The notes under the pieces: generated by a model
Seen by the model: only the letters and a program-made list of their open reading frames with translations
Told to the model about the DNA's origin: nothing
Database searches by the model: none
Source: a virus
IMG/VR virus record: IMGVR_UViG_3300022074_000118
Coordinates: 1-40,337 of that record
Strand: one strand, 5' to 3'
DNA length: 40,337 nt
Shown here: positions 24,149 to 40,337 of the stretch, one piece after another
Position numbering within the stretch: the first letter of the stretch is position 1
Layout of the letters: every line of letters starts with the position of its first letter
Position numbers and translations under genes: made by a program

Positions 24149-24152
24149 ATCT

Positions 24153-24821: not shown

Positions 24822-24828
24822 CGACTAA
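24676..24828 (+). CDS. Possible overlapping small protein in the +1 frame
   Basis: Fifty residues from an ATG inside an AAATGAATCC motif. The product (MNPVAKSLSEKQNRPKTIPD, then RRESYDRYIARKLRENWRN) looks as protein-like as the overlapping frame, perhaps more so. There is no ribosome binding site, which argues for expression by frameshifting at the A8 run or against expression at all. Confidence 0.3.
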   Translation: MNPVAKSLSEKQNRPKTIPDKRRESYDRYIARKLRENWRNLDARKKDIDD

Positions 24829-24881
24829 GCCCAACTCGTGCCATACCGTTTTTGTCGTTGTTTTTAACACAGGAGTAAACG

Positions 24882-25163
24882 ATGTATTACGCAGACATCA
24901 TCACCAAAGATGATTTGATTCAGGAGTTCAAGGAAGAGCGTCTGGTCGTTCGTAGGATGTTTAACAACATCAAGAGTTGCAAACACTCTATCACACAGTC
25001 TCTGCTTGCCAAGCCCCGTGATGTTCACGAGGTTGTTATCTATAAGTACTTCGAGACCAAGCGCGACAAAATTCATGGCTATTACGAGTGGACTGGTGAG
25101 AAACTCAAACTCAACAGCAAAATAGATGCGTTCGTCCATAACGTGTTCTACGGGAGAATGTAA
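24882..25163 (+). CDS. Small protein, unknown
   Basis: Ninety-three residues behind a clear AGGAG. The sequence is mixed alpha/beta with balanced charge (MYYADIITKDDLIQEFKEER; HEVVIYKYFETKRDKIHGYY). No known motif. It is separated from the preceding gene by about 53 bases, unlike the overlaps elsewhere, so it may begin a new translation unit. Confidence 0.7.
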   Translation: MYYADIITKDDLIQEFKEERLVVRRMFNNIKSCKHSITQSLLAKPRDVHEVVIYKYFETKRDKIHGYYEWTGEKLKLNSKIDAFVHNVFYGRM

Positions 25164-25164
25164 A

Positions 25165-25455
25165 GTGAGCAAGCGTGATTACAAAGAGGTAGAACTCCTC
25201 AAGCACAAACTGACCAACCGCGCTGGTGGTAGGTTTTTCAGTATAACTTTTGTCAAGGCAGATGGCTCGACCCGTAAGATGGTCTGCCGCTTGGGTGTGA
25301 AGCAACACGCCGGAGGTAAGTCATCTGACCAGTTTAACTACAGCCTGTTGACTGTGTACGATGTGCAGAAGCGTGGCTTCCGGAACATCAACCTTGAGAC
25401 TGTCCAACAATACACTGTGTCCGGTCAGACCTTTGAGCAGAAGTGGGTGCAGTAA
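25165..25455 (+). CDS. Conserved phage protein, SH3-like beta-barrel type
   Basis: Ninety-six residues starting at a GTG with GGGAG upstream, one base after the previous stop. GGRFFSITFVKADGSTRKMV, LGVKQHAGGKSSDQFN and TVYDVQKRGFRNINLETV form the beta pattern of a small phage protein family that I recall being labelled SH3 beta-barrel fold. Such proteins are widespread in podoviruses and marine myoviruses; the function is unknown. Confidence 0.75.
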   Translation: MSKRDYKEVELLKHKLTNRAGGRFFSITFVKADGSTRKMVCRLGVKQHAGGKSSDQFNYSLLTVYDVQKRGFRNINLETVQQYTVSGQTFEQKWVQ

Positions 25456-25457
25456 CG

Positions 25458-25625
25458 ATGAAAAAGTACAAACCAGTATCTGTAACAATCCGTGCTCACT
25501 ACACGTTGCACATGGAGCCGGAAGACATGGCACAACTAGACGATGGCACACCAATCACAGATTTTGATGGTTGGAACGATGAACTCGTCCAAGTTGAAAT
25601 CTACGACATCACACCGGAGGAATAG
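25458..25625 (+). CDS. Small acidic protein, unknown
   Basis: Fifty-five residues from the ATG at 25458, three bases after the previous stop; a GTG at 25443 would lie inside the upstream gene. It begins MKKYKPVSVTIRAHYTLHME, beta-like, and ends acidic (VEIYDITPEE). The following gene also starts MKKYK with the same codons, hinting at duplication of the 5' end. Confidence 0.65.
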   Translation: MKKYKPVSVTIRAHYTLHMEPEDMAQLDDGTPITDFDGWNDELVQVEIYDITPEE

Positions 25626-25627
25626 AG

Positions 25628-25819
25628 ATGAAAAAGTACAAGGTATCTTACGAACCTAGTGAAGCTGTTTACGAATACATAGTTGAAGCTGACGATGAAT
25701 TCAAAGCCGAAGACGAGGCGTATGAAATGCTACAAGAAGCAATCGGATGGGACGGGGCGAAAGACTGGTGTTTCGTTAGTGCCGAAGAAATAGACGAGGA
25801 ACAAAATGAACCACTATGA
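25628..25819 (+). CDS. Small acidic protein, unknown
   Basis: Sixty-three residues with a very good GGAGG site. MKKYKVSYEPSEAVYEYIVE then acidic helices (DEFKAEDEAYEMLQEAIGWD). High acidity and small size resemble DNA-mimic or host-takeover proteins, but this is only a compositional resemblance. It overlaps the next gene by 14 bases. Confidence 0.68.
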   Translation: MKKYKVSYEPSEAVYEYIVEADDEFKAEDEAYEMLQEAIGWDGAKDWCFVSAEEIDEEQNEPL

Positions 25820-26060
25820 AAAGGGAATTGAATTTGGCATACATCCCCGATGGGACAAGAGGGTTAACGTCTGGTGCCAAATGAAATCCACCTCGCTTGG
25901 TATTGAACCGGAGCGCGGCGAACTAAATGAATTTCCTGTACAGACAATTATCGGCGTGTTCGATGATCAATGGGGCGCAATGAATTTCTGCTCACGTCTA
26001 GCAAATGAATTTAGGAATGAATTCCGTAAGCACCTTTTTATTGACACGGTGCCCAAATGA
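25806..26060 (+). CDS. Small protein whose gene is studded with the AAATGAATY motif
   Basis: Eighty-four residues with GAGGA ahead of the ATG. The product (MNHYEKGIEFGIHPRWDKRV; QTIIGVFDDQWGAMNFCSRL) is soluble and of unknown family. The gene contains three exact copies of AAATGAATY and several near copies, one of which provides the stop codon. They produce NEF twice plus MNF in different codon registers, so the repetition is at the DNA level rather than in the protein. Confidence 0.65.
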   Translation: MNHYEKGIEFGIHPRWDKRVNVWCQMKSTSLGIEPERGELNEFPVQTIIGVFDDQWGAMNFCSRLANEFRNEFRKHLFIDTVPK

Positions 26061-26911: not shown

Positions 26912-26979
26912 TAACTTGCGCCCGATACCAAATCAGCGCACAGTTTGTTTGTCGTTAATTTTTGAGAAAGGTTAAAACG

Positions 26980-27939
26980 ATGACTATTCAAGTATTCGAA
27001 CATAAGGACTTGAGCAATCTCGACGCTTTTGTCGGGTGCCGAACATTCAAGGCACCGATCCACACAACACGGGGCGAACTGGTGCCGGATTATTACGCAT
27101 TGGTAAATGAGAACGGCGAACCATTGCCAGCCCGCCCGGTCTCTAAAAGCTACAAGCTAGTGAGCCATCTTGAGATGTTCCGGCAACAGGCCGAACAGCT
27201 TGCGGATAGCTCTTTGCCGACTGCCAATGTGTCGGTTAAGGATACCGTGCTAGACGGGGGGCTTCGCGCAACCCGTGAGGTACATTTTGACGACGTGCGG
27301 CTGGATATGCCCTGCGGTCGTCTTACTGACCCGATGGTCGCCCGCATGGACACAATTAACAGCGTTGATATGTCGTGGGCTTTTCAAGCCTTCGCGGGGG
27401 CATATCGTAGCTATTGCCGAAATACTCAGGTATTCGGCGGCGAGAAGGTCTATCACGCCAAGCGCAAGCATACCCGCAATCTGTCGCCGGAAAGCATAAC
27501 GGCAAATAGCATTGTCGGGCTGGACACGTTCCACAATAACCGCGATTATTTTAACCGCATGAGGACGGTTGATTTAAGGCCGGACGAATGGCGGGAAATC
27601 ATGGAACAAACCCTGTGCCATAAGCAAGGGCGGGGTGCTGCCGAAACTACCGACAAAGCGGCAAAGGTCAACGTCGCATTGCTGGGTCAGATGATGACCC
27701 GCTACGACCAAGAAAGCGCGGACTTAGGGTCTAACATGTGGGCGGGGTACAATGCCCTCACCGCATGGTCTACACATGTGGACAAGGACGCAAACTGGCT
27801 GGATGAAGACGGGAACGAGAAAAGCCGGAAAGCCCGAACTACTGACCCAAACAGGGTGCCCCATGTTCAGATGCAACGCCAGAACCGTGTTCGTGACGTG
27901 CTTAACAGCACGGCATGGGCGCAGAAATTGGCGGCATAA
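26980..27939 (+). CDS. DUF932 (phage/plasmid-like TIGR03299) protein
   Basis: Three hundred nineteen residues from an ATG with AAAGG upstream. Features of the DUF932 family are visible: PVSKSYKLVSHLEMFRQQAE, the central TINSVDMSWAFQAFAGAYRS with YCRNTQVFGG, and the C-terminal WAGYNALTAWSTHV and QNRVRDVLNSTAW. This family is carried by phages and plasmids, often near antirestriction and replication genes; no enzymatic activity is known to me. In this window it sits within the G+C-rich cassette. Confidence 0.8.
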   Translation: MTIQVFEHKDLSNLDAFVGCRTFKAPIHTTRGELVPDYYALVNENGEPLPARPVSKSYKLVSHLEMFRQQAEQLADSSLPTANVSVKDTVLDGGLRATREVHFDDVRLDMPCGRLTDPMVARMDTINSVDMSWAFQAFAGAYRSYCRNTQVFGGEKVYHAKRKHTRNLSPESITANSIVGLDTFHNNRDYFNRMRTVDLRPDEWREIMEQTLCHKQGRGAAETTDKAAKVNVALLGQMMTRYDQESADLGSNMWAGYNALTAWSTHVDKDANWLDEDGNEKSRKARTTDPNRVPHVQMQRQNRVRDVLNSTAWAQKLAA

Positions 27940-27941
27940 TC

Positions 27942-28022
27942 GTGGGGGATTTGCTTGCTATCATTTATAAAACTTTACTTTGCATAATTGCCCTTGTTAT
28001 TCTGGGCGCGTTAATCAACTAG
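27942..28022 (+). CDS. Possible 26-residue membrane peptide
   Basis: GTG at 27942, two bases after the DUF932 stop, opens a frame encoding VGDLLAIIYKTLLCIIALVI then LGALIN and TAG, one hydrophobic helix. No clear ribosome binding site. Similar in kind to the peptide at 28887-28964, which supports it mildly. Confidence 0.3.
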   Translation: MGDLLAIIYKTLLCIIALVILGALIN

Positions 28023-28037
28023 AAAGGAACTAACGCC

Positions 28038-28334
28038 ATGACACAATTCAAACTCAACCAACCAGCACCGGAACGCTTTGCGTCGGACGTGCTGGACAAC
28101 CGCGACGAAGTAATCGAAACCCGCAAGGCGGTCATCCGTACGCTGGGCTATACTCAGGTACAGCTTGCCGACGCAACGGGGTGCGGTGCGGTAACAATCA
28201 ATAGCTGGCTGAACAACAGCAAGAGCACACGCAACGGGGTGCGGGTACGTATCGCCAATGCTCTGTTGCTCCGGTATATTGAGAAGTACCAACCAACGGC
28301 ATTGGACACTTTGCCGCCATTTCGCAACTTGTAA
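28038..28334 (+). CDS. Small helix-turn-helix DNA-binding protein
   Basis: Ninety-eight residues behind AAAGGA. Residues about 35-75 (GYTQVQLADATGCGAVTINS then WLNNSK) form an HTH of the Cro/XRE style: helix 2 TQVQLADATG, turn, recognition helix AVTINSWLN. The N-terminus is a linker. It could regulate its own cassette or be a phage early/late switch, but it has no dimerisation domain that I can see and no cognate operator is proven. It is the only HTH regulator apparent in the window apart from TerS. Confidence 0.65.
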   Translation: MTQFKLNQPAPERFASDVLDNRDEVIETRKAVIRTLGYTQVQLADATGCGAVTINSWLNNSKSTRNGVRVRIANALLLRYIEKYQPTALDTLPPFRNL

Positions 28335-28347
28335 GGGGGGGCACATT

Positions 28348-28617
28348 ATGACTGTTAACAAGATGGACAGCGTAGGTAATGTTCAACCTATCGAGACGCG
28401 CAACGCTTGGGGCTATCCCGACAGGGACACGCTCCGGCTTAACGCCAATCAGACCCAATCGCTCCGGCGGGTCATTGCCCACTATATGCCAAGCGAAACT
28501 ATACACTGGGAAGAAAGCGGCGAACCAGCCGACCACGTTTATTCTGACTTGGTGGTGTTGCGCTGGGCAATTCGTGAGCATGATAACGTGGGCACAATGG
28601 GGGCAAATCATGAGTGA
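28348..28617 (+). CDS. Hypothetical cassette protein
   Basis: Eighty-nine residues with an AGGGGGGG ribosome binding site. Contains RDTLRLNANQTQSLRRVIAH and EPADHVYSDLVVLRWAIREH, helical and soluble. G+C-rich codon usage as in its neighbours. Overlaps the next gene by 8 bases. No family recognised. Confidence 0.6.
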   Translation: MTVNKMDSVGNVQPIETRNAWGYPDRDTLRLNANQTQSLRRVIAHYMPSETIHWEESGEPADHVYSDLVVLRWAIREHDNVGTMGANHE

Positions 28618-28894
28618 CATCTACTTAAACGCTAAAGCGGCGGGGGTACTGGTCGAGGTGCTAGACTTCATTATTGACGACACTTACCAGACGCCGAAAC
28701 TCACCCCAACAGCCGCCAGACTATCCGCACAGTACTTGCGCGGGGAACTGGACGAGACCAAGCAAGACGAGTACCGCATAAAACTTGCGGGGGCACACTC
28801 CCTGCTGGAAGCATTGCGAGCGGTGCCTGTTGGTCACGACGCGCTTGCGCCCGTGTCAAACCTCGACGACTATCGGGGGGCTGACCATGATTAG
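28610..28894 (+). CDS. Hypothetical helical cassette protein
   Basis: Ninety-four residues, ATG preceded by GGGGG. Mostly helical (MSDIYLNAKAAGVLVEVLDF; AHSLLEALRAV) with an acidic end (SNLDDYRGADHD). It overlaps both neighbours, so it is translated as part of a coupled series. Unknown function. Confidence 0.6.
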   Translation: MSDIYLNAKAAGVLVEVLDFIIDDTYQTPKLTPTAARLSAQYLRGELDETKQDEYRIKLAGAHSLLEALRAVPVGHDALAPVSNLDDYRGADHD

Positions 28895-28964
28895 CATCGC
28901 CGGACTGCTTCTAGTCGTTTCTATTGCGTTTCTTGTCTGGCTGATTATTGAGGAGTACCGATAG
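28887..28964 (+). CDS. 25-residue single-transmembrane peptide
   Basis: An ATG overlapping the preceding stop, with CGGGGGG six bases upstream, encodes MISIAGLLLVVSIAFLVWLI then IEEYR and TAG. The strong ribosome binding site, coupling and perfect hydrophobic helix with a charged end support a real micro-protein. Possible roles are small holin/antiholin or membrane partner of another cassette protein; none is shown. Confidence 0.55.
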   Translation: MISIAGLLLVVSIAFLVWLIIEEYR

Positions 28965-28997
28965 CCAGCAACACTTCGGGAACCTCCCGCCGAGAAG

Positions 28998-29027
28998 CCC
29001 TCCAGCTTAACCGCTGGGGGGTTTTTT
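28998..29027 (+). terminator. Rho-independent terminator of the G+C-rich cassette
   Basis: CCCTCCAGC and GCTGGGGGG form a 9-bp stem (one G-U) with loop TTAACC at 28998-29021, followed by six T. It closes the 26.2-29.0 kb cassette. Confidence 0.93.
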
Positions 29028-29387
29028 CGTGGGCACGGGGGAATAATACCTAGCGGGCTGTTATCGCTCTGTTATCACGTTGTGTGGCTTGTCGGGGATA
29101 ATGCGCCGATGTGCGCCCGACGGTGCACTTTTAGGGGGTGGGCACTGGGGTCAAATGAATTCGCTTGCTGTCTCGCGCATGGGCACGGGCGCGTAAGCCC
29201 TCAAGTAGCACGGCGGGACACTATCGGGGGTTATGGCGGGGAAACTGCGAGGCCACGGCATCACCGATGGGGAAATATATTTGTGACCGACTAGGGCGGG
29301 CAAGGGCCACCCCACCCCCCAGTACATTTACATGCAATCCAGCCATATTTTTTGTAGTTTTAGGGGTGTGACATTTGTGCAACCGTC

Positions 29388-29476
29388 GCAACATATAGGG
29401 AGACCCTCCAGTTTCCCAATAAAAAACCCCCACTGGGATCAGTGAGGGGTCCAATCTGCAACATTTAGGGTACCCT
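29388..29476. repeat. Two-copy GCAACATWTAGGG repeat with dyad
   Basis: GCAACATATAGGGAGACCCT (29388-29407) and GCAACATTTAGGGTACCCT (29458-29476) are direct repeats 70 bases apart, each holding an AGGG/CCCT dyad. They flank the hairpin terminator at 29427-29449 and are candidates for binding sites. Confidence 0.6.
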
Positions 29477-29519
29477 ATAGGGGTCTAGGAGGATATGGTG
29501 TATCTCCCGGCGGGTTACT
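29420..29519 (-). ncRNA. Predicted approximately 100-nt phage small RNA with anti-Shine-Dalgarno element
   Basis: A consensus promoter on the - strand and a rho-independent terminator 70-odd bases downstream bracket a short transcript with no useful reading frame. About 25-35 nt from the predicted start the RNA contains UCCUCCU, complementary to AGGAGGA ribosome binding sites, followed by a small hairpin (ACCC-CUAUA-GGGU) and the terminator stem. A similar CCUCC-rich loop is known from regulatory small RNAs of Alphaproteobacteria. Ends are predicted, not observed. Confidence 0.6.
29421..29449 (-). terminator. Rho-independent terminator on the - strand
   Basis: CACTG/CAGTG plus CCCC/GGGG with one bulged A and a four-base loop (29427-29449) is followed on the - strand by six T (29426-29421). 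It points away from the small RNA promoter and ends that transcript. Confidence 0.8.
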
Positions 29520-29524
29520 CCCTG

Positions 29525-29553
29525 AGTATACATGTGGATTTCGCGTTTGTCAA
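29525..29553 (-). promoter_or_regulatory. Strong sigma70-type promoter on the - strand
   Basis: TTGACA (29553-29548), 17-base spacer, TATACT (29530-29525): five of six -10 bases and all -35 bases match the consensus. No gene lies downstream before the terminator at 29421-29449, which suggests a non-coding transcript starting near 29518. Confidence 0.75.
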
Positions 29554-29635
29554 CCCCAAAAACACCCCCCGGTGCATTTTTCTAGGAAAATACCCGTAAA
29601 TGCCCCCCCTAATTTTATTTTTTGGTAAAAAAGAG

Positions 29636-29663
29636 TTGACATATTGGTTTTAACCACTAGAAT
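29636..29663 (+). promoter_or_regulatory. Promoter for the packaging/structural operon
   Basis: TTGACA (29636-29641), 16-base spacer, TAGAAT (29658-29663). It is the only strong + promoter before the terminase genes and gives a leader of about 90 bases. The preceding sequence is A/T-rich (TTTTATTTTTTGGTAAAAAA), as an UP element would be. Confidence 0.75.
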
Positions 29664-29761
29664 ATGTAGTAGGGCCACTGTGTAACGGCAAAAGAGAAAC
29701 AATTATAGACAATATAGTCTTTTACTGCCTCACATGTCCCACTTCATATCAAAAGAGTCCC

Positions 29762-30163
29762 ATGAATCTGTTACCCCAACAGCGTAAGAAGGTGCCACTC
29801 AGCGAGAAACAGGAAAAGTTCCTCGACGAGTTGTTCGACAACGGCGGCAATACGAAGGCTGCAGCCATAGCTGCGGGCTATGCAGAGGGTTCTGCCAAAT
29901 GGTTGCGCGATAGGTTGTCCGACGAGATCATCGAACGCAGCAGACACGTCATGGCAGCACACGCAGTAAAGGCCGTTAACCGGATCGTTGCAACAATAGA
30001 CGATGATGGCAGCGAACCACGCGCCGAAGTGCGTCTACGGGCTGCTGAAGCCCTCCTGAACCGTGTTGGACTCGGCAAACAAGAAACAGTTAACCACAAT
30101 GTACAGGCAGTACACGGCGTAGTTCTGTTGCCGCCTAAAAAGGAGATACAGATCGATGGCTGA
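29762..30163 (+). CDS. terS: Terminase small subunit
   Basis: One hundred thirty-three residues. An N-terminal HTH (LSEKQEKFLDELFDNGGNTK then AAAIAAGYAEGSAKWLRDRL) is the DNA-recognition domain of small terminases; the central helices (RAEVRLRAAEALLNRVGLGK) are the usual oligomerisation part. It binds the packaging site and loads the large subunit. Context supports this: it is first in the packaging operon, with the large subunit two genes later. The ribosome binding site is weak (AAGAG). Confidence 0.88.
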   Translation: MNLLPQQRKKVPLSEKQEKFLDELFDNGGNTKAAAIAAGYAEGSAKWLRDRLSDEIIERSRHVMAAHAVKAVNRIVATIDDDGSEPRAEVRLRAAEALLNRVGLGKQETVNHNVQAVHGVVLLPPKKEIQIDG

Positions 30164-30467
30164 AAGAATAATACAACCCCGGAGGGCTGATTTGCCCGTG
30201 AGTGAACGTGCTTATGATTCACAGGTAGAGCAAAACAGACAGGATGCTGCTCAGAGGGCAGGAGAAAACAAACGGGACGCATTAAAACGGCGACGTAGGA
30301 CACAACAAGAAAATTTTGATAGAGTAACACGCCAAGTTAATAAAAATCTTAGAGAAGGTAACAAACGACTAGGTGGCGGACCTCCCCTTCAAGAAAGTCT
30401 TCGGGCAGACAAAATTCAAACCGGACTTCTGAATCAAAATCAAAAACTCAAGAAACGTCCAAAATAG
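30156..30467 (+). CDS. Small basic helical protein
   Basis: One hundred three residues overlapping the TerS stop by 8 bases with AAGGAG upstream. Very basic, Arg/Gln/Lys-rich helices (DAAQRAGENKRDALKRRRRT). Could bind DNA or act as a packaging accessory; family not recognised. Confidence 0.65.
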   Translation: MAERIIQPRRADLPVSERAYDSQVEQNRQDAAQRAGENKRDALKRRRRTQQENFDRVTRQVNKNLREGNKRLGGGPPLQESLRADKIQTGLLNQNQKLKKRPK

Positions 30468-30478
30468 AAAGTAACACT

Positions 30479-30766
30479 ATGACCAGCAAAACATACTACA
30501 ATAGCCCCGGAGCTCGTGCAGATGGAACACCTTCTGGTCAGAACGGGGAGATGGCTCAAGATAAAACCAAAGATCCTTCAGATAGTCTTGTAGGACGTGT
30601 AGGAATAGAACTTAACAGGCGTAACGCCGGAAAGCCCGACTTGATTAATAAAGATGGCGTTAACGTAACTGTCCGGACATTAAGCGCAGGAATCAACGCT
30701 GGTATCATCAAATCTAAAGATATCAAAAATAAGAATCCGATAAAACCAAAATCTAACCGTGACTGA
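30479..30766 (+). CDS. Small protein between terminase subunits
   Basis: Ninety-five residues. N-terminus rich in Gly, Ser, Asp and Asn (SPGARADGTPSGQNGEMAQD) then a basic C-terminus (NKNPIKPKSNRD). The tail overlaps the TerL start. No recognised domain; it may be a packaging accessory. Confidence 0.6.
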   Translation: MTSKTYYNSPGARADGTPSGQNGEMAQDKTKDPSDSLVGRVGIELNRRNAGKPDLINKDGVNVTVRTLSAGINAGIIKSKDIKNKNPIKPKSNRD

Positions 30767-32465
30767 TGATGCGAATCCCACTCCGCCCAAACGTCCACGT
30801 GGGCGACCTAAGAAGGACCCCGATGCCCCGAAAGCATCGTACCATCTTTCCCGTGCAGAAACAGCCCGCCGTGAAACTCAAAAGAGAATACGCCGTAACA
30901 AGAAAAAAGCGGACAAACTAGAAGGTCAAGCCAAACGCTACCGTCAAGTTGTTCGTGAACAGAAGAAAGCCGCACAGAATGTCGAAAATGCTCTCAACGG
31001 TGAAAAGTCACGTGTTATCGATCAGGGTGAGATTAACAGCCTCCCTAAATCAGTTCGAGATCTCGTTGAAGATTCTGAGGTGGTATTTAAGCCTAACGAT
31101 GGCCCTCAGTTTGATTTCCTCTCGGCTCCAGAGCAAGATGTCCTGTATGGCGGAGCGGCTGGCGGGGGTAAATCTTTCGCTCTCCTTGCGGACCCTCTTC
31201 GTTATTGTCATAATGCTAATTTTCGTGGCCTTCTGCTCCGCCGCACTCTAGACGAGCTAACAGAGCTTATCGACAAATCAAAACAACTGTACCCCAAAGC
31301 GTTCCCCGGTGCAGTGTTCCGTGAATCCAAATCAACGTGGAACTTCCCCTCTGGGGCAACTCTCTGGTTCACCTATCTAGAAAAAGACCGTGACGTTACC
31401 CGCTTTCAGGGTCAAGCGTTTGCGTGGATAGGCATCGACGAGATAACACAGTATCCGTCCTCTTACGTGTGGGACTACCTACGCTCTCGTCTGCGTACGA
31501 CTGATCCGGAACTCATGGGGCAACTCTCCATGCGTTGCACAGCCAACCCCGGTGGGGTAGGAGGCTGGTGGGTCAAGAAGATGTACATCGACGCAGCACC
31601 GCACAATACGACATATCCGGCAATAGATATCGAAACAGGCAAACCGTTCGTGTGGCCTGTTGGTCACGAGAAAGAGGGAGAGCCTCTGTTCTATCGCCGC
31701 TTTATCCCCGCACGTCTTACCGACAACCCATACCTCATGGCGGACGGACAGTACGAGGCGATGCTACGCTCCCTCCCAGAGGTAGAGCGCAAGCGTCTTC
31801 TTGATGGGGACTGGGACGTTGCCGAAGGTGCAGCGTTCCCAGAGTTTAGCAGGGTTCGCCACGTGGTTGATCCCGTAGAGTTGCCAACCAACTGGCCTCG
31901 CATCAGAGCCGCTGACTACGGCTACAGTTCTCCGTCATGTGTCCTGTGGGGCGCAATCGACTGGGACAACAACATCTGGGTCTACCGTGAACTCTACGGC
32001 AAGGGTATGACAGGCGAACAGCTTGCCAGTCGTATCATGGAGATGGAGGCAGACGATCAGCCACCACACTACACGGTGCTTGACTCCTCCTGTTGGAACA
32101 AGACTGGGCTTGGCCCGTCTATTGCAGAAACAATGATACGGTGCGGCGTGAGGTGGACACCCTCTGACCGGAACCGTTTAGCGGGTAAGATGGAGATCCA
32201 CCGTCGTCTGTCGGATGATCCGTACACCAACGAACCCCGTATGAAGATATTCAACACCTGTCAGAACACAATCAAACAACTGTCAGGTATTCCGCTGTCT
32301 AAGAACAACAGCGAAGACGTAGACACAAAGGCTGAAGACCACGCCTACGACGCACTGAGATATATGCTAATGACAAGAACATCAGGATACGCAACGATCA
32401 ACAATCAGCTTCGCGGCATCAAAGACCGTGTGTATCAGCCGATGGATTCGACGTTCGGGTACTAA
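30759..32465 (+). CDS. terL: Terminase large subunit
   Basis: Five hundred sixty-eight residues; the ATP-driven motor that cuts and packages DNA. N-terminal basic AT-hook-like tail (KRPRGRPKKD at 11-20). ATPase: Walker A GGAAGGGKS (131-139), Walker B WIGIDE (223-228), coupling motif near CTANPGG. C-terminal nuclease: AADYGYSSPS (first acidic residue), YTVLDSSCW and EDHAYDALRYMLM. Translation starts at a GTG (30759) overlapping the previous stop; no better start exists upstream of the ATPase. Confidence 0.95.
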   Translation: MTDDANPTPPKRPRGRPKKDPDAPKASYHLSRAETARRETQKRIRRNKKKADKLEGQAKRYRQVVREQKKAAQNVENALNGEKSRVIDQGEINSLPKSVRDLVEDSEVVFKPNDGPQFDFLSAPEQDVLYGGAAGGGKSFALLADPLRYCHNANFRGLLLRRTLDELTELIDKSKQLYPKAFPGAVFRESKSTWNFPSGATLWFTYLEKDRDVTRFQGQAFAWIGIDEITQYPSSYVWDYLRSRLRTTDPELMGQLSMRCTANPGGVGGWWVKKMYIDAAPHNTTYPAIDIETGKPFVWPVGHEKEGEPLFYRRFIPARLTDNPYLMADGQYEAMLRSLPEVERKRLLDGDWDVAEGAAFPEFSRVRHVVDPVELPTNWPRIRAADYGYSSPSCVLWGAIDWDNNIWVYRELYGKGMTGEQLASRIMEMEADDQPPHYTVLDSSCWNKTGLGPSIAETMIRCGVRWTPSDRNRLAGKMEIHRRLSDDPYTNEPRMKIFNTCQNTIKQLSGIPLSKNNSEDVDTKAEDHAYDALRYMLMTRTSGYATINNQLRGIKDRVYQPMDSTFGY

Positions 32466-32468
32466 GGT

Positions 32469-34262
32469 ATGGCAGAGAAACGACTAACATCAGCGCAAAA
32501 ACGTAATCTCACATTACGAGGTCTTTTCGAACTTGAGGGTTCTCAGAAAGAAAACGTACGCGCAGAAACCGGGCGTTTTATAAAAGAGCTTGAGGGAGTT
32601 GTAGACCCTGTATCAGGACAGAATGTCTTGGATATGAAAGTTCAAGATATGGATGTCGGTCAAGTTGTAGGCGACGTAATTGAAAAAAGTAAGTTTGGTA
32701 TTAGCGACGCTGAAAATAATCCGGAAACACGCACCCGGAGTCAGGGTTTAATTGTTCGACTTAAAACAATGTTTGGTGGAGCGGGATATCCTACAGACTA
32801 TGTCAACAAAGAAGTTCAAAACTATTTAGGTGAAGACGCTTACGAGGCAAACACTAAAATGAGTTTGTTCAGGGCGCGTAAAACACTTTTAGGGCTTCCT
32901 GACGATATTTATCCAAAATTAAAAACTGTATTACAAGACCCCAATTTACCTCAAGACACAAAGCTACAGTTTTCTGCACACTTATTTGGGGGCTTCCGCC
33001 CAGCTACTCTTAAAGAATTTGACATTAAAAACTTTGATGCTCAAAAGGGGATAATCTCTGTATATGATGCTAAATCTAAAAAGACAAAGGTAACTGTACT
33101 CAATCCTGTTCTTGTCGATATATTTAAACAAGCATCCGAAGGGCGTAAAACTGGGCCAATATTTTTGGATGTCACCAGTAACACTAAAATTATTAATGAT
33201 AGATTAAAAAATGTTGTTGGAGAAGTATCTTTTTTAAAACCTTCAGGGAATATTGAGAAAGAACAATTTTCTGTATATAAACTTCGCAATATGAATGAGA
33301 CTTTGCTCTCAGAAACAGGATTAAATACAGAGGATACTGCATTTCTAAGTGGTAGGGCACAAGCCACAGAAGCGGGAGGGTATGTAACTCAGAAAAGCCG
33401 TAAACGTAGAGTAGATCGTGCGGGACAAGAAGTAGTTGCAAAAATTATCGGTTATTCTGGCGACGCTAATCCTGCTCAATTTGGAGCAGATACTGGTTTA
33501 AAACTAAGTGCCAAATCCAAAAATATACCCATCTTAACAAGTCTTTTAGATGACGAGGATTACGTAAAAGCATTGCCGGAGGGCTTTTTAGAAAGTCTAC
33601 CTGAAGAAGGTCAAGCACCCACAGGAAAAGCTGCAGAAGCTGATCCAGAACTAACAGAACAACGCCGTCTACAAGCCTTAGAAGAAAGCCGCAAAGTTAC
33701 AGAAGCGGCGGGACTTGAGGCCGATGATTTAGAAAGGGAGCGTCGCCGCCTCGCATTAGAGCAGCCTGAACTTACTGAAGAAGAAGCGTTGCGGTTGGCT
33801 CGTGAACGCGCAACCCGACAACAGGCAACTCAACAAGTTAAACAAGAGAAAAAGGCTGAAACCACCGCCGCTGAAAAGCAGCAAGCACGAGAGGATGTAA
33901 AAGGGTTTTTTGAACGAGCTAACGAGGCTCTATCTAAGCTCCCGCCACCTGTTAAAAAAGCAATCCCTATCGCTGGCACCGCCGCTAGTTTACTTGCTGC
34001 CGACGCAAAACGACAAGAAGCAAAGGCGGCTGCTGAAGAGGGTCGTCCCATAGTAGCAGCTTTACGAGGGGCACAAGCGGTTGAAGAAGTCGTTAGCCCA
34101 CTGCCTTTTACCACTGGGGACGTTGAAGATTTGGTTGTTACAGAGAGAACACCACAAGAAGAAGAATTTTTACGTGCACAACGAGAAACACGCGCAGAGC
34201 GTATGGGAGCACGTAGAGAAAGGGCTGCATCTGCCCAAATGGATGCACTAATGTCAAAATAG
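32469..34262 (+). CDS. Tyrosine-recombinase-like domain fused to a long helical tail
   Basis: Five hundred ninety-seven residues. Residues about 90-150 look like a core-binding domain, and 160-310 match a tyrosine recombinase catalytic domain: SAHLFGGFRPATLKEFDI (box I Arg177), SVYDAKSKKTKVTVLNP (Lys204-207), SVYKLRNMNET (box II Arg273, with Tyr270 at the His position) and LSGRAQATEAGGYVT (Arg296 at the LGH His, nucleophile Tyr305 at the standard +9 spacing). Residues 385-480 are Glu/Arg-rich coiled coil and 490-545 an Ala-rich, weakly hydrophobic stretch, unlike any integrase. It lies between the terminase and portal genes. It may be active, or reused as a structural fold. Confidence 0.65.
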   Translation: MAEKRLTSAQKRNLTLRGLFELEGSQKENVRAETGRFIKELEGVVDPVSGQNVLDMKVQDMDVGQVVGDVIEKSKFGISDAENNPETRTRSQGLIVRLKTMFGGAGYPTDYVNKEVQNYLGEDAYEANTKMSLFRARKTLLGLPDDIYPKLKTVLQDPNLPQDTKLQFSAHLFGGFRPATLKEFDIKNFDAQKGIISVYDAKSKKTKVTVLNPVLVDIFKQASEGRKTGPIFLDVTSNTKIINDRLKNVVGEVSFLKPSGNIEKEQFSVYKLRNMNETLLSETGLNTEDTAFLSGRAQATEAGGYVTQKSRKRRVDRAGQEVVAKIIGYSGDANPAQFGADTGLKLSAKSKNIPILTSLLDDEDYVKALPEGFLESLPEEGQAPTGKAAEADPELTEQRRLQALEESRKVTEAAGLEADDLERERRRLALEQPELTEEEALRLARERATRQQATQQVKQEKKAETTAAEKQQAREDVKGFFERANEALSKLPPPVKKAIPIAGTAASLLAADAKRQEAKAAAEEGRPIVAALRGAQAVEEVVSPLPFTTGDVEDLVVTERTPQEEEFLRAQRETRAERMGARRERAASAQMDALMSK

Positions 34263-34273
34263 GAGTAGACAAA

Positions 34274-34495
34274 ATGCCGGGTAATAACTATAATTATGGT
34301 GCGGGCTACATTATGGGTCAAGACAAACAGTCTGTTGATCAAAACGTAGGCGAAACCCAACTGTACCGTGAATCACTAGAGTTTGATACGAAAACTGCAC
34401 AAGGCGTTCTCACTGAGGACATGCCTAAGAAGCAGACCAAGCCTACTGACACAGGTATTATGAAACAGGCTGAAGATCACAGCATCTACGGCTAA
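34274..34495 (+). CDS. Small protein upstream of portal
   Basis: Seventy-three residues with AGGAG ahead of the ATG. Gly/Asn/Tyr-rich start (MPGNNYNYGAGYIMGQDKQS) and a polar remainder. Position just before the portal suggests a head or connector accessory. No family recognised. Confidence 0.7.
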   Translation: MPGNNYNYGAGYIMGQDKQSVDQNVGETQLYRESLEFDTKTAQGVLTEDMPKKQTKPTDTGIMKQAEDHSIYG

Positions 34496-34510
34496 TCCAA
34501 AGGGGCCACT

Positions 34511-36637
34511 ATGGACGAGGATATGATGCCATCTGGTGACGATCAACCAGATGTGATTGACAACGCTGAAGAGATAGCCCCCGGACTTGCAGGTTTGATA
34601 CAGGAACGGTTCCGCTCTGCGGAGACGGGCCGCTATAATCACGAGCAACGCTGGTTGCAAGCCTACAAGAACTTTCGGGGCAACTTTAACGACGGGACGA
34701 CGCAGTACCGCGATTCCGAACGTTCGAAAGTCTTTCTAAAAATAACAAAGACAAAGGTCTTGGCAGCATACGGTCAGATCGTTGATATCCTGTTCGCTAA
34801 CAAGAAGTTTCCGCTGACAGTTGAGAACACACCTGTCCCAGAAGGGATTGCTGAGTTCGCACATATGGAAACGCCCCTTGATCAGGCTCAACCCCAACCA
34901 GATCCATTCGGGTTTGACGGTGATGGTCGGGAGATACCTCCCGGCGGCACAGAAGCCGTAGAGTCTGAAAACTTTCTTGGTGGACTCAAGGACGAGTACG
35001 CCGGACTTCCTCTGCGTGAGGGCAAAGCCCGTTTGGGAGAGCCTCAGATCTCTCCTGCCGCTGAAGCAGCCCGTCGTCTTGAAAAGCACATCCACGATCA
35101 GCTTCTCGATTCTAACGCAGTCAACGTCATGCGTACTGCTGTGTTCGAGTCAGCACTGTTCGGGACAGGCATCGTCAAGGGTCCTCTCAACTTCCAGAAG
35201 ACAGTGTGTCGGTGGGAACGTAACGAAGAGGGAGAGCGTATGTACAGCCCGTTCGAGAAGGTTGTGCCCCGTATCGAAGCTGTATCCGTGTGGGACTTTC
35301 ACCCAGACCCCTCCGCTACAAGTCTAGAGGACGCAGAGTACGTCATTCAGCGTCACCGCATGAACCGCCAACAGCTACGTGCGCTACAGCAGCGTCCATT
35401 CTTCGACAAAGAAATTCTTGCCGATGTTATTGCTAACGGTCCAAACTATACCGACAAGTATTATGAAGATACTGTTCGAAACGATGAGAATGACCCTGCA
35501 TATCAAGACAATCGCTTTGAGGTTCTAGAATACTGGGGCGTACTTGACGCTTACTTTGCCAAAGAGATTGGCATGGACATTCCGGCTGGCATGGACGATC
35601 TTGACCAGCTTCAGATCAATGCTTGGGTCTGCGGTCCTCGCGTTTTACGCTGTGTGTTGAACCCGTTTACTCCGGCGCGTATTCCGTATTGCGCCATGCC
35701 GTTCGAAGTTAACCCGTACAACATCTTTGGTGTTGGCGTAGCTGAGAACATGGAAGACGCACAGATGCTGATGAACGGTCACATGCGTATGGCGATTGAC
35801 AACCTTGCTCTCGCTGGCAACCTTGTGTTCGACGTAGACGAGGCGGCTCTGGTCCCCGGACAGAACTTCGATATCTTCCCCGGAAAGATCTTCCGACGAC
35901 AGTCGGGAGTTACAGGGACAGCAATCAACGGGTTGAAGTTCCCCAACACGGCTGGTGAGAACATCCAGATGTATCAGATCGCCCGTCAGCTTGCCGACGA
36001 AGAGACAGGTATCCCGTCTATCATGCACGGGCAAACAGGCGTTACGGGCACAGGGCGCACGGCAGCGGGTCTGTCGATGCTGCTAGGCTCTGCCAGCCTG
36101 TCTATGAAAACAGTAATTAAGAACATCGACGACTTCATGTTGAAGCCTTTGGGAGAAGCATACTTTCAGTGGAATATGCAGTTCAACGATGACGCTCCGG
36201 ACATTGTAGGGGACTTGGAGATCAAGCCTCGCGGTGCCGCAGCAGTCATGCAGAAGGAGGTACGCACACAGCGTCTTACAGCGTTGTTGCAGACGGTAGC
36301 TAACCCGATGTTGGCTCCGTTCATCAAACTACCTAACTTGATGCGAGAGCTTGCGATATCTCAGGACATTGATCCTGATAGTTTGGTCAACAATATGGAC
36401 GAAGCTGCGCTCTACGCCGAAATGCTCAAAGGACTACAAAATGCTCAACAAGGAACAGGCCCGGAAGGTGGCTCCGCTACTCAGCAACCAACAGGCATGG
36501 GAGGGGCTGGAGGCGTACCTCAAGGACCTCCACCAACTGACGATTCGGGGGTTGGTGATGGCACAATCGGAACCGGAGTTGCGCCAACTGCAGGGGAAAG
36601 CGGCTTTACTGGAAATGCTCCTGAAGTTGAGACTTGA
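34511..36637 (+). CDS. Portal protein (head-tail connector)
   Basis: Seven hundred eight residues with AAAGGGG before the ATG. It forms the dodecameric ring at the capsid vertex through which DNA passes. The N-terminal part (RWLQAYKNFRGNFNDGTTQY; KITKTKVLAAYGQIVDILFA) and the core (VRNDENDPAYQDNRFEVLEY; FEVNPYNIFGVGVAENMEDA; HGQTGVTGTGRTAAGLSMLL) match podoviral portals of the P22/marine type. The C-terminal about 90 residues are Gly/Pro-rich and disordered, and this stretch is shared in a second frame with the 36441 gene. Confidence 0.9.
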   Translation: MDEDMMPSGDDQPDVIDNAEEIAPGLAGLIQERFRSAETGRYNHEQRWLQAYKNFRGNFNDGTTQYRDSERSKVFLKITKTKVLAAYGQIVDILFANKKFPLTVENTPVPEGIAEFAHMETPLDQAQPQPDPFGFDGDGREIPPGGTEAVESENFLGGLKDEYAGLPLREGKARLGEPQISPAAEAARRLEKHIHDQLLDSNAVNVMRTAVFESALFGTGIVKGPLNFQKTVCRWERNEEGERMYSPFEKVVPRIEAVSVWDFHPDPSATSLEDAEYVIQRHRMNRQQLRALQQRPFFDKEILADVIANGPNYTDKYYEDTVRNDENDPAYQDNRFEVLEYWGVLDAYFAKEIGMDIPAGMDDLDQLQINAWVCGPRVLRCVLNPFTPARIPYCAMPFEVNPYNIFGVGVAENMEDAQMLMNGHMRMAIDNLALAGNLVFDVDEAALVPGQNFDIFPGKIFRRQSGVTGTAINGLKFPNTAGENIQMYQIARQLADEETGIPSIMHGQTGVTGTGRTAAGLSMLLGSASLSMKTVIKNIDDFMLKPLGEAYFQWNMQFNDDAPDIVGDLEIKPRGAAAVMQKEVRTQRLTALLQTVANPMLAPFIKLPNLMRELAISQDIDPDSLVNNMDEAALYAEMLKGLQNAQQGTGPEGGSATQQPTGMGGAGGVPQGPPPTDDSGVGDGTIGTGVAPTAGESGFTGNAPEVET

Positions 36638-36683
36638 TCACGCAGCAGTTATGAAACAAGAGAATGTCACAAACAGAACTTGA
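36441..36683 (+). CDS. Overlapping gene in the +1 frame of the portal 3' end
   Basis: Eighty residues from an ATG at 36441 preceded by AAAGGA, overlapping the portal gene by 197 bases. The product (MLNKEQARKVAPLLSNQQAW then EGLEAYLKDLHQLTIRGLVM and LQGKAALLEMLLKLR) is a normal amphipathic helical protein, whereas the portal frame at this place is low-complexity Gly/Pro. It extends past the portal stop and overlaps the next gene by 20 bases. I read it as a real small connector or portal-associated gene. Confidence 0.65.
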   Translation: MLNKEQARKVAPLLSNQQAWEGLEAYLKDLHQLTIRGLVMAQSEPELRQLQGKAALLEMLLKLRLDHAAVMKQENVTNRT

Positions 36684-38727
36684 TAACTCATTTTTGACGA
36701 CGGGGCTCCCTACAGATCAGAGCACCCCGGATCTTGATGCTGTCGAGTCCCCTGAACTAGATTTCTCTGCTGTTGAGTCGCCTAGTGTAGACTCACCCGG
36801 ATTGTTTGAATACGAAGGGCCGTTTGGTGACTTCACACGCCCCGATGATGACCTTTGGTTTGAAATTAGACGTAAAGCACGGCGAGACCAACGCCTCTTC
36901 GAACGTAGACAAGTCATGGACTTCTATGAAAATTTTAATTTTGAAGAAGACGGAAGCATTAAATTTAAAGACGGTGGCACGTTTGATTTTGATTTTGATC
37001 TAGACATAGACCTTAGAGAATTAGGCTTTAAGCTCCCTGAGTGGAACCCGAAGCTAAAACTTGAAGATGCTATTCCGCGATTAAACTTTGGATACCTTTT
37101 AGAAAAGGACATGATTCCAAAATTTGACACTCCTGAATCTGTTAAGGAGTTTTTTGAAGGGGTAACATCCGGCTTAGATAACTTGATTGGTGGCATAGAT
37201 TTAACCAATCTCGAATCTTTCAAAGACAATTTTGATGGGTATGGCAGCGCAGGTAAATCAGCTTATGACGCAATATCGCAAACTCTCAACTTCTACGAAA
37301 ATCCGTCTTTGACAAATGCTGAAGGTCTTTTAAACAGTTTAAACAAAGCCTCTGAAACTTTTGAAAAAATTGGTTTTCAATCTGGCTCTGACCTTGCAAA
37401 GTTGTCTCCCAACCTATCAGGACTTCTTTTGGATGCGGGTGCTGTGAGTGACATAGCTTCATTTGTGGATGATCCTTCTTTGAAATCTGCGGCACAAGCC
37501 TACGGAAGCATGAATTTTCTTTTGGAAAATTACACTGATCTAGGAAGTATACCGGGTTCTCAGAGCGATATTGCTAAATTAGCGGGCAACGCAGTGACAG
37601 TAATAAACGCTGCTACGCAGTTAGATGATTTCTTCAAAGATCCAACTCTTAGCGGAGCCCTTACCACAAGTGCCGCTGTAGCAAATGCCGCCGCTGTATT
37701 TGGTAGCACGTCAACTGCGGCTACTGCAACAAGCATAGCCAATTTTTTAAATCCAATCACAGCGTTTGTTGCTGGTGTTGGTTTGATCAGGGGGCTCACC
37801 CACGACGCTGACTACACACGATCAGATGGAATTGTCTCCTACGGTAACGGTAAATTCAGTACAACATCCCTTAACGGTGCAGACGGTGGTCCTCTAGCTT
37901 TTAAACATTGGGCTGATGCTCACACATCCACTGCTGTAACCGGACTAAACTCCCTGATCAATGACTACGGTTTTACCGTAGATGAAAAAAAGATGGCTAC
38001 TATATTTAATAGCCACATGAACAAATCCTATATAACAAACAACCCTCAGTATGCAAGGCAGGGAGGTAGGAATCACTCATCCAGTAACGTCGATATGGTT
38101 CTGTCTTTGCTGAAGGCCGGAGCTTTGAAACCGGGAGAGGATACCCCGCTTGTTTTGGTTCAGGATGAAGGCACGTTCGGATCGTTTATGGGCAGTTTCT
38201 TCAGGCAGATGACCAACGATGCCGCAACGTACATGATGGACAACGGCGGGTTTGTTTCACAACAATATAGACGAGGGGCTGGTCAACAGCGGAAAATAGA
38301 ATCTCGAACATATCTCCCCTTCGCGGACAAGCAATCTGCACAAGCCTATATAGATACTAGAGGTATAGGACTTAAAAAGAGCGGTATGCAGGAGATCGGA
38401 AGTAGAAGAGTATACAAAACTCGGAGCATACCTATATTGGGTTTTAACGTAACTGGGCACACAATAAACTCTGACAACTCTATAAAACCCACCACTCTTA
38501 CGTATAACGTCGGAGAGGGCACGGTGAAATACAGAAGCAAGTATACTCCTCAATACACCAGAACATTTAAAACAGAGGCACAAGCCAAAGCGTTTGTTTC
38601 TGCCAATAGCGGAGATGTTGTCGAAAAATATACTCGTCAAGAAGGTAGGTACAAAGAACGCACTGACTACGCCTACATACGACACGAAGGCAAATACCTC
38701 ATAGGCTCAAGAACTGTAAAGATTTAA
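36664..38727 (+). CDS. Large virion protein, unknown
   Basis: Six hundred eighty-seven residues. The N-terminal 60 are acidic and Ser/Pro-rich. A Phe/Asp-rich patch follows (GGTFDFDFDLDIDLREL). The middle (about 170-340) is helical with repeated Leu-Asn-Ser elements, 335-385 is Ala-rich and hydrophobic (AVANAAAVFGSTSTAATATS), and the C-terminus is beta-rich and basic (KYRSKYTPQYTRTFKTEAQA). Lies after the portal. It may be a scaffold-like, connector or ejection protein, and I see no enzymatic motif. Confidence 0.65.
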   Translation: MSQTELDNSFLTTGLPTDQSTPDLDAVESPELDFSAVESPSVDSPGLFEYEGPFGDFTRPDDDLWFEIRRKARRDQRLFERRQVMDFYENFNFEEDGSIKFKDGGTFDFDFDLDIDLRELGFKLPEWNPKLKLEDAIPRLNFGYLLEKDMIPKFDTPESVKEFFEGVTSGLDNLIGGIDLTNLESFKDNFDGYGSAGKSAYDAISQTLNFYENPSLTNAEGLLNSLNKASETFEKIGFQSGSDLAKLSPNLSGLLLDAGAVSDIASFVDDPSLKSAAQAYGSMNFLLENYTDLGSIPGSQSDIAKLAGNAVTVINAATQLDDFFKDPTLSGALTTSAAVANAAAVFGSTSTAATATSIANFLNPITAFVAGVGLIRGLTHDADYTRSDGIVSYGNGKFSTTSLNGADGGPLAFKHWADAHTSTAVTGLNSLINDYGFTVDEKKMATIFNSHMNKSYITNNPQYARQGGRNHSSSNVDMVLSLLKAGALKPGEDTPLVLVQDEGTFGSFMGSFFRQMTNDAATYMMDNGGFVSQQYRRGAGQQRKIESRTYLPFADKQSAQAYIDTRGIGLKKSGMQEIGSRRVYKTRSIPILGFNVTGHTINSDNSIKPTTLTYNVGEGTVKYRSKYTPQYTRTFKTEAQAKAFVSANSGDVVEKYTRQEGRYKERTDYAYIRHEGKYLIGSRTVKI

Positions 38728-38728
38728 C

Positions 38729-40337
38729 ATGCAACCTAAAATGATCATAGCTCTAGATGTTTCAGATAAGTCCGAAGAGGCTAACATGATTCGTCGCACG
38801 TACTCTAACATACGTAATAAAAAAATAGAGAACACGGCAACAACTGACGAGCAGGTCGACGGGATGATGGCTACTGGTGGTGTTTCCCAAGTTCCCACAG
38901 AAGAACCCATCCCGCAGGAGGCACCCAACGGACCTCCCTCTGGTGTTATTGGATCTCAGAACGCTTCGCCGGAGGAGACTGTAGCTGATGATATTCCGAT
39001 GGAAGTACCAGAGGGAGCGTTCATCATCAACGCCGCCGCTGCAGAGGTAGCAGGATATGGTGACATCAAGAAGATGATTCTAGATGCAGTGGGTGTAGCC
39101 CGTCGGCTGGGTGTTGAAATATCTACAGGCGAGGACGAAGCCGGGGACGAAGAGGCAGTAGACCTGCTCGTGTCAAAGGGCGAAGTCTACATTGAGCCCA
39201 CTCTGGCTAAGATCATTGGCTACGATGTTCTAGAGAAGATCAACAACAGAGGTAAACGTGAAGTAGCCCGCCGCCAGCAGGAGGCAGAGGCCAAACAACA
39301 ACCACCGCAAGAACAGCCGCCACAAGCTCCACCACAGCCTCAGATGGCGCAAGAAGGCGGGTTCGTAAAAAAAAAGTTCGCTGATGGCGGAGAAATACCC
39401 CTAGAGAGTGAGCAAGATCTTTTTAACTTCATGTTGAAGCAACAGAGGGAGGTCCCTCAGAAAGAAGTAAACCCAATATCTGATGATGCTCTAGCACTCG
39501 CTGATTTGGAATTTGAAGTTGACATAGTTAACAGGTCTAAAAATGACCCTGTTCTACGTGCCGCATTTCAAGACGCTCAAGGCAGGATGCCAAGTGAATA
39601 TATTGAAATGAGAAATATGAGTATTAGAGAGGCAGAACAGATCTTAGCATCTCAAGAACGCCCCAGTTTTTATGACGTTGAACGAGTTAACCGCGCAAAA
39701 CGTGAAGGTTACAAAACTTTAGATAGCCCTAGTTTTGATTTTAAAGGTCAATATTCTCAAACTATAAAAGGGTTTGGCCCCGACAGAGACACAATATTAA
39801 CACGGGCACACAGTGAACAAACTGATCCTACAGACGTTTCCGCAACCCTGTACCATGAATTGTTGCATAAAGGACATCAAAAACTAGTTGGAATACCTAC
39901 AACTAGCTTTACAAGAGACAAAACAGGCACTCTTAAATACGTCCTTACAACGCCGGAACAAGCTGATCGTGCAAGACTTTTACATTTAGATGTTCATCGT
40001 AGAACTTACGAGGCTTACAAAGACGAGTTATCTTCGGAAGCATTAAAACTTTTTACTGCACAAGTATTTGACACTTACGGATCAAGAGCTACTCAGCCTT
40101 ATATGCAGAAGTTTATAAAAAACTTAATTTCTTCTGAAGCCCCAGAAGTTAATCCTCGTGAAATTTTTAAGTTTAATATGCTAAAAAAGGATCTTATTCC
40201 CGATGATAAGGCGCGACCTATTGCAGACGCTGTATTCGCAGAAGTCGCAAAACTACCGCCAATACGCGCTTTAGATGAAGAATTAAAAACTGCTTATCAA
40301 AAGCAACGAAAGAATTCTCAGGGATTCGCTGAAGGTG
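38729..40337 (+). CDS. Virion-region protein with an HExxH motif (partial, runs off the window)
   Basis: At least 536 residues, starting one base after the previous stop. N-terminal part with EVPEGAFIINAAAAEVAGYG and ARRLGVEIS (about 93-130), a pattern I recall in marine phages; a Gln/Pro-rich linker (189-206); KKFADGGEIP (about 215-224); then helical sequence. Residues 376-383 read HELLHKGH, an HExxH zinc-metalloprotease-like motif with a third His three residues on. It could be a virion-processing or host-envelope protease. The C-terminus is missing, so the length and the rest of the active site are unknown. Confidence 0.75.
   Translation, partial: MQPKMIIALDVSDKSEEANMIRRTYSNIRNKKIENTATTDEQVDGMMATGGVSQVPTEEPIPQEAPNGPPSGVIGSQNASPEETVADDIPMEVPEGAFIINAAAAEVAGYGDIKKMILDAVGVARRLGVEISTGEDEAGDEEAVDLLVSKGEVYIEPTLAKIIGYDVLEKINNRGKREVARRQQEAEAKQQPPQEQPPQAPPQPQMAQEGGFVKKKFADGGEIPLESEQDLFNFMLKQQREVPQKEVNPISDDALALADLEFEVDIVNRSKNDPVLRAAFQDAQGRMPSEYIEMRNMSIREAEQILASQERPSFYDVERVNRAKREGYKTLDSPSFDFKGQYSQTIKGFGPDRDTILTRAHSEQTDPTDVSATLYHELLHKGHQKLVGIPTTSFTRDKTGTLKYVLTTPEQADRARLLHLDVHRRTYEAYKDELSSEALKLFTAQVFDTYGSRATQPYMQKFIKNLISSEAPEVNPREIFKFNMLKKDLIPDDKARPIADAVFAEVAKLPPIRALDEELKTAYQKQRKNSQGFAEG

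Follow-up and report, generated by a model that had tools for sequence, protein, structure and literature searches.

Tyrosine recombinases have precedents in virus particles and in genome packaging. VLF-1 of baculoviruses and VLF-1 and INT-1 of bracoviruses are virion proteins of the tyrosine-recombinase superfamily, required to excise or package DNA or to form capsids (PMC3649998, PMC11654684). A different precedent is gp44 of phage 80alpha, a late-made ejection protein that aids circularisation of the genome. It is encoded in the late operon between the portal and major capsid genes, and it acts on the incoming genome as a non-specific DNA-end binder, not as a recombinase (PMC7290940). In the wider group of marine podoviruses around HMO-2011, integrase genes precede the replication module and head the early module (PMC9038755, PMC6918029). 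CRP-3 of this group integrates at tRNA-Met (PMC6918029), and the presence of an integrase is patchy among the HMO-2011 subgroups (PMC9038755).

The locus described here encodes a predicted tyrosine recombinase directly behind the terminase large subunit gene (terL). It resembles Brujita Int, archaeal XerA, XerH, Cre and the core of lambda Int, its best structural matches, in its core-binding and catalytic domains and in the residue set R-K-R-(H/R)-Y. It differs from simple integrases and Xer proteins by a long coiled-coil tail and a fixed late place in the packaging operon; the box II histidine is nearly always lost, box III is often arginine, and no att or dif site was found. The integrase of HMO-2011 (a 302-aa frame) and gp02 of CRP-3 belong to the same superfamily, and an HMM of the present family matched the former weakly (E 4.7e-4). 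However, these integrases stand first in the early/replication module, are encoded on the opposite strand and have no long tail, and CRP-3 has a tRNA-derived T-arm that the present phages lack. Type IB topoisomerases share a related catalytic fold without a box II histidine, but they are structurally less similar than integrases (VIA Z ~8), and the present recombinase has a SAM-like core-binding domain. VLF-1 and INT-1 (PMC3649998, PMC11654684) and gp44 (PMC7290940) are possible functional parallels. The viruses with VLF-1 and INT-1 infect insects and have neither terminase nor portal, no sequence relation to them is claimed, and virion location is established there, whereas here we infer it. 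A literature search with most subscription journals outside its reach found no published account of a recombinase between terL and the portal gene. A conserved single-copy recombinase locked into this position in a whole clade of tailed phages would be a candidate counter-example from a very different virus world, and a testable one.

The slot between terminase and portal

The window is the whole stretch of DNA analysed, 40,337 nt of IMG/VR record IMGVR_UViG_3300022074_000118, and represents a 40-kb fragment. The 597-aa ORF begins with an ATG at 32469 on the plus strand, and its stop codon ends at 34262. The genes around it are as follows.

29762..30163, +, terminase small subunit gene, terS (PHROG 51, E 3.2e-8)
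30759..32465, +, terminase large subunit gene, terL, directly upstream in every locus (PHROG 979, E 8.9e-60)
32469..34262, +, tyrosine-recombinase/tail fusion gene, 597 aa (ORF, PF00589, AlphaFold, Foldseek, VIA-align; slot occupied in 111/111 related loci)
34274..34495, +, 73-aa ORF in the gap between recombinase and portal (counterparts of ~66-101 aa in the compared loci)
34511..36637, +, portal protein gene, SU10/HMO-2011-type (PF23899, E 5.1e-27; PHROG 332, E 7.2e-81)

The recombinase ORF starts 3 nt past the stop codon of terL, about 11 nt are clear downstream, and the 73-aa ORF precedes the portal gene. The placement between terminase and portal that had been noted from the sequence alone is thereby borne out. 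The terminase of the window is ~49-56% identical and the portal ~44-53% identical to those of Roseobacter CRP, HMO-2011 and pelagiphage HTVC genomes. By these flanking genes, the phage belongs to the HMO-2011 group of marine podoviruses or lies close to it. The minus strand carries the replication genes and the plus strand the structural ones, which puts the recombinase gene on the late side of the genome.

Several other features of the window were recorded. A DUF932 protein is encoded just upstream of the packaging genes (26962-27939, +; PF06067, E 3.1e-18). A short ORF upstream of terS (28143-28265, +) has a weak HTH_3 match (E 5.6e-6, below the cut-off) that was absent from the other clade genomes searched. 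The DNA polymerase A gene (18897-20982, minus) contains a segment resembling a DnaJ zinc finger, as is typical of the HMO-2011 group, and its exonuclease part forms a separate overlapping ORF. The final ORF (38729-40337) is open-ended and encodes YHELLHKGHQ, which resembles a zinc-peptidase motif, together with a GGFVKKK segment.

The window protein itself has just two detectable relatives in IMG/VR, and tblastn found no match to it among 50,697 phage records. Searches of isolate phages by tblastn with the alleles of L002 and L028 and with a C-terminal fragment of L034 also gave no match at that sensitivity. The family was therefore sought through relatives of the portal gene, with inspection of the interval between terminase and portal. 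All 111 distinct IMG/VR loci having both genes were found to carry an ORF of 522-790 aa in this slot. It starts 0-9 nt past the predicted end of terL, with terL, this ORF and the portal gene all on one strand. The clade consists of HMO-2011-related, uncultured, mostly marine viruses of bacteria. The GC content of the slot gene is below that of its flanks in 94/94 loci.

The recombinase is present once per genome. PF00589 matches were confined to the slot across the window and 32 related contigs, of which four span 55-57 kb, and where the slot gene was too divergent for PF00589, the domain matched no other ORF of the contig. An HMM of the slot family gave one match per contig in ten contigs, the next-best ORF having an E value of 0.74. 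In the four genome-length relatives (55-57 kb), the slot gene is the sole tyrosine recombinase. Overlapping ends occur in three of these four contigs, and the completeness of the set rests partly on length, since an exact direct end repeat (91 bp) is found in one of them only.

More distant phages lack the recombinase in this slot. It is empty in HMO-2011 and Aeromonas MQM1 and taken by small ORFs in HTVC115P and HTVC033P, and two MAG contigs (portal 54-56% identical) have a 189-aa protein there. In phiM6 and RHph_N3_19, several genes occupy the slot, among them those of an SGNH hydrolase and an FAD-dependent oxidoreductase, which marks the junction of terL and portal as a point where different clades have inserted different enzymes. 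The enzyme genes of these two phages lie at L004 5222-6829 and L007 3935-6484.

Fold, active site and tail

By sequence, PF00589 of Pfam matched residues 166-298 of the window ORF at E 0.0082, under the cut-off, and 25 of the 56 family members scanned at E<0.1 (best 1.2e-7). PHROGs had no family matching the window protein, and a PDB sequence search with it gave only chance coiled-coil matches (E 0.46-0.63). An AlphaFold2 model, made from an input alignment of 55 sequences, has a mean pLDDT of 85 and exceeds 90 across most of residues 11-380. When the model was compared with the PDB using Foldseek, every match with E <0.001 was a tyrosine recombinase, the top ones being Brujita integrase, XerA and others of this type (E from 6.9e-5). 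VIA-align 2 aligned residues 13-328 with a Z score of 12.4, with Brujita Int and archaeal Xer among the matches, and it aligned the catalytic domain to those of lambda Int, HP1 Int and SSV1 Int. Structural matches in BFVD that bear names are nearly all phage integrases. The L002 allele, also modelled with AlphaFold, is a predicted tyrosine recombinase with lambda Int, Cre and XerH as its best matches; two alleles without BLAST similarity both give tyrosine recombinases as top Foldseek matches. On these models, the 597-aa ORF encodes a genuine tyrosine recombinase with an integrase-type catalytic fold and a core-binding domain, and the lambda-integrase/Xer fold proposed by the sequence-only reading is confirmed by structure prediction, Foldseek and VIA-align.

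The order of domains is core-binding domain, catalytic domain, tail. The core-binding domain begins almost at the start codon, so an arm-binding domain of the lambda type is absent. Simpler integrases and Xer proteins likewise have no arm-binding domain ahead of the core-binding domain. Domains and catalytic positions, with counts among 110 copies, are listed below.

32505..32858, +, N-terminal core-binding (SAM-like) domain, ~residues 13-130 (AF2 helices 8-130; VIA-align; T15 in 103/110)
32877..33455, +, catalytic domain, ~residues 137-329 (VIA-align to lambda, HP1 and SSV1 Int; PF00589 at residues 166-298)
32997..32999, +, Arg177, box I catalytic Arg (110/110)
33081..33083, +, Lys205, beta-hairpin catalytic Lys (Lys in 104/110; with neighbours K202, K204 and K207, the exact register depends on the alignment)
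33285..33287, +, Arg273, box II catalytic Arg (Arg 110/110); the HxxR His is Tyr270 here (His in 5/110)
33354..33356, +, Arg296, box III position (His 63, Arg 45, Ser 2 of 110)
33381..33383, +, Tyr305, putative nucleophile, nine residues past R296 (110/110)
33639..34259, +, C-terminal tail, ~residues 391-597 (predicted helices, composition, separate exchange)

The counts refer to non-redundant copies with a median pairwise identity of 17%. The catalytic set that had been picked out by eye (box I Arg, hairpin lysines, box II Arg and a Tyr at +9) is present in full, far beyond chance, and the window protein has the lysines spanning 202-207 as well as Y270-x-x-R273. Comparison of homologues gave no free variation at R177, R273 or Y305, which are invariant throughout. 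The same reading saw two catalytic histidines replaced, by Tyr270 and Arg296. These replacements are real, but they are not peculiar to the window copy, as 105 of the 110 lack the box II His and 45 have Arg at box III, a position that is His or Arg in 108/110. Both positions can vary: box III is Trp in Cre and Flp, and the box II His is absent from type IB topoisomerases.

Beyond the catalytic positions, the only near-invariant columns are one Phe (109/110) and one Thr (T15, 103/110), and in the median well-occupied column the commonest residue is held by about one third of the sequences. Within alleles, dN/dS is ~0.11 in the recombinase part, as against 0.26 in the tail. Near-invariant catalytic residues at a median identity of 17%, together with a dN/dS of ~0.11, are the signature of an enzyme in use, and the alignment indicates that the active site is under strong constraint. 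Tyr305 would cut DNA through a 3'-phosphotyrosine link, while the core-binding and catalytic domains would bind the DNA.

A Glu/Ala-rich, mostly helical C-terminal part does follow the recombinase fold, as the first inspection had suggested and as composition and the AlphaFold model agree. In the window, long Ala/Glu-rich helices or coiled coil are predicted to lead through a low-confidence linker to a C-terminal helix ending in QMDALMSK. A tail of 143-294 residues is present in 110/110 copies. The window and L002 have ~55% of the tail in common, with no match over the first 390 residues, and L063 and L064 have the recombinase part in common with different tails. These comparisons identify the tail as a second, separately exchanged module. 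The description of the tail as virion-like found no support, and no homologue was found among known or neighbouring virion proteins; in a comparison with 4,290 other ORFs, tails matched solely other recombinase tails cut by contig ends. The tail was also considered as a transmembrane segment, but 8 of the 110 reach a mean hydropathy of 1.6 and a membrane segment is not claimed.

Short C-terminal peptides (PEAAP...QGFLSR or GF[LIV]/[NSD]FL) recur on unrelated recombinase parts, for example in L034, L037, L038 and L061. They were found in 45 of 67 slot recombinases and in 24 of 333 other large ORFs, and could represent a docking or sorting signal. The QMDALMSK ending of the window and L002 forms a second C-terminal class. 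The 110 tails contain 0.0% His, 0.0% Cys and 0.1% Trp, and the recombinase parts are also without Cys.

Whole-gene replacement in near-identical phages

Near-identical phages carry unrelated recombinase alleles, and the gene is exchanged whole. G033 (locus L140) has 99.65% DNA identity to the window through terL up to 32476 and 98.9% over 34255-38732, whereas 32477-34254 shows no detectable similarity.

32477..34254, +, segment replaced as a unit in G033/L140, from codon 3 to the last codons (pairwise DNA comparison; left breakpoint at 32476 shared with L002, L132 and L139)

L139 is 99.1% identical to the window over 28001-32476 and then divergent up to the tail. Among 50 locus pairs with a terminase identity of at least 98%, 29 have recombinase parts that BLAST does not match with one another. 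The relatives all come from metagenomic assemblies, and individual contigs may contain errors. However, chimeric assembly is a poor explanation because the ORFs are intact, the active sites conserved and the breakpoints recurrent.

No matching change tracks the alleles elsewhere in the phage sequence compared, from which the target of the recombinase most likely lies in the gene itself, in non-phage DNA or in a DNA structure, and not in a fixed phage site; genome pairs were compared where their contigs overlap, so that a site beyond these overlaps may co-vary with the allele. The patch of small ORFs between terS and terL (30164-30756) was considered as a cognate site and rejected, as G033 diverges from the window here whereas L139 matches it exactly, and the patch thus does not track the allele. 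Its two small ORFs are replaced in G033, L002, L132 and L010 and kept in L139, which makes the patch a second hypervariable slot beside terL, independent of the recombinase allele. The window and G033 also diverge at 38733-38869, near the start of the last ORF. A further hypervariable late gene is a large post-portal protein that diverges between G003 (23398-25879; L213) and G023, a pair otherwise 91-96% identical.

Possible roles of the recombinase

There is an even chance, in our estimate, that the protein is a catalytically constrained late-operon recombinase that acts on phage DNA at packaging or entry, and not an ordinary lysogeny integrase. Action on DNA ends or concatemers and carriage in the capsid, two options of the sequence-only reading, belong to this preferred reading. 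Judged by its gene position, the recombinase would be made late, together with the packaging and head operon. The coiled-coil tail would hold the enzyme at the packaging complex or inside the head. During packaging, the enzyme would act there on genome ends or branched junctions, resolving, joining or circularising them. Alternatively, the enzyme would be ejected with the genome and do the end joining, circularising or resolving on arrival. By analogy, the position next to terL is suggestive of a packaging role like that of VLF-1. A more specific proposal is put forward tentatively: that the clade packages the recombinase with or onto the genome, that the recombinase is a core component of the packaging/ejection machinery, and that its DNA-recognising part is swapped whole among otherwise identical phages. 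The exchanged alleles also form a natural set of enzymes, presumably differing in specificity.

The main rival, which we consider rather unlikely, is a lysogeny integrase relocated to the terminase-portal junction; its own gene would contain a simple attP, and allele exchange would change the host site. Temperate phages commonly swap integrase cassettes, an intragenic attP would travel with whole-gene exchange, and allele replacement is equally expected of integrases that change host att sites. The conserved catalytic set and the closest folds (integrases and Xer) also agree with an integrase, as do temperate relatives in the wider group such as CRP-3 at tRNA-Met (PMC6918029). However, the gene keeps its late-operon place in 111/111 loci, and room for an attP beside it is absent, as the gap to terL is 0-9 nt and, in the window, ~11 nt separate the gene from the next ORF. 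A strict tRNA T-arm pattern was not found in ten clade contigs, whereas the CRP-3 control shows a T-arm with a CCA end. A loose T-arm-like pattern occurred 9 times in recombinase genes against 2.4 expected, several of these being copies in related loci, and not in the recombinase gene of the window. Inverted repeats like loxP in the gene and its flanks numbered 8 against 8.7 expected, and no recombination site was found there.

No CI/Xis-type domain (HTH_3/HTH_17) exceeded the cut-off in seven clade records, and the HMO-2011 record likewise gave none. No clade prophage was found in one genome each of 84,980 species, which is weak evidence because the hosts of the clade are uncultured. As a positive control, PF00589 matches the integrase of HMO-2011 at E 1.2e-21, so an ordinary integrase would have been detected. 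The results on att sites, CI/Xis genes and prophages weaken the integrase reading, against which also stand the tail of 143-294 residues in all 110 copies and the universal presence of the slot gene, as opposed to the patchy integrases of HMO-2011 subgroups (PMC9038755). If the gene is nevertheless a lysogeny integrase, it would point to a possible temperate life in relatives of groups called obligately lytic for want of a recognised lysogeny gene (PMC9038755), and to an unusual coupling of an integrase to the late operon.

It is less probable still that the enzyme is aimed at other DNA, such as host sites like dif, plasmids or competing phages, and is delivered or expressed late with frequency-dependent diversity of alleles. 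Such a role would fit the replacement of alleles with no co-varying phage site in the parts compared, and the purifying selection on alleles once fixed (dN/dS 0.11). The GC content below that of the flanks in 94/94 loci may mean that the alleles come from outside, and the slot of other relatives holds unrelated enzymes (SGNH hydrolase, FAD oxidoreductase). On the other hand, no target was identified in the sequence compared, and universal presence argues for a core role and not for an accessory weapon.

A domesticated recombinase fold that does structural or regulatory work without cleaving DNA, comparable to the SroF/YopR repressors, had been among the options of the sequence-only reading and is now very improbable. 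The gene sits among head genes, 105 of the 110 copies lack the box II His, and SroF/YopR are among the structural matches; yet a structural protein would have no need of Tyr305, and a purely structural fold is disfavoured because the invariant R, R and Y, with Lys in 104/110, are nearly the sole invariant columns in a family of 17% median identity.

A protelomerase (hairpin telomere resolvase) is hardly credible: long palindromes or telomere hairpins stay at the control level in the four genome-length contigs and the window, which outweighs the long C-terminal part and the missing box II His that such a recombinase would share, while the absence of protelomerases from the VIA-align matches listed carries no weight, as an unlisted family may still match. 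The exact 91-bp direct end repeat of one genome-length contig points to a circular or terminally redundant map.
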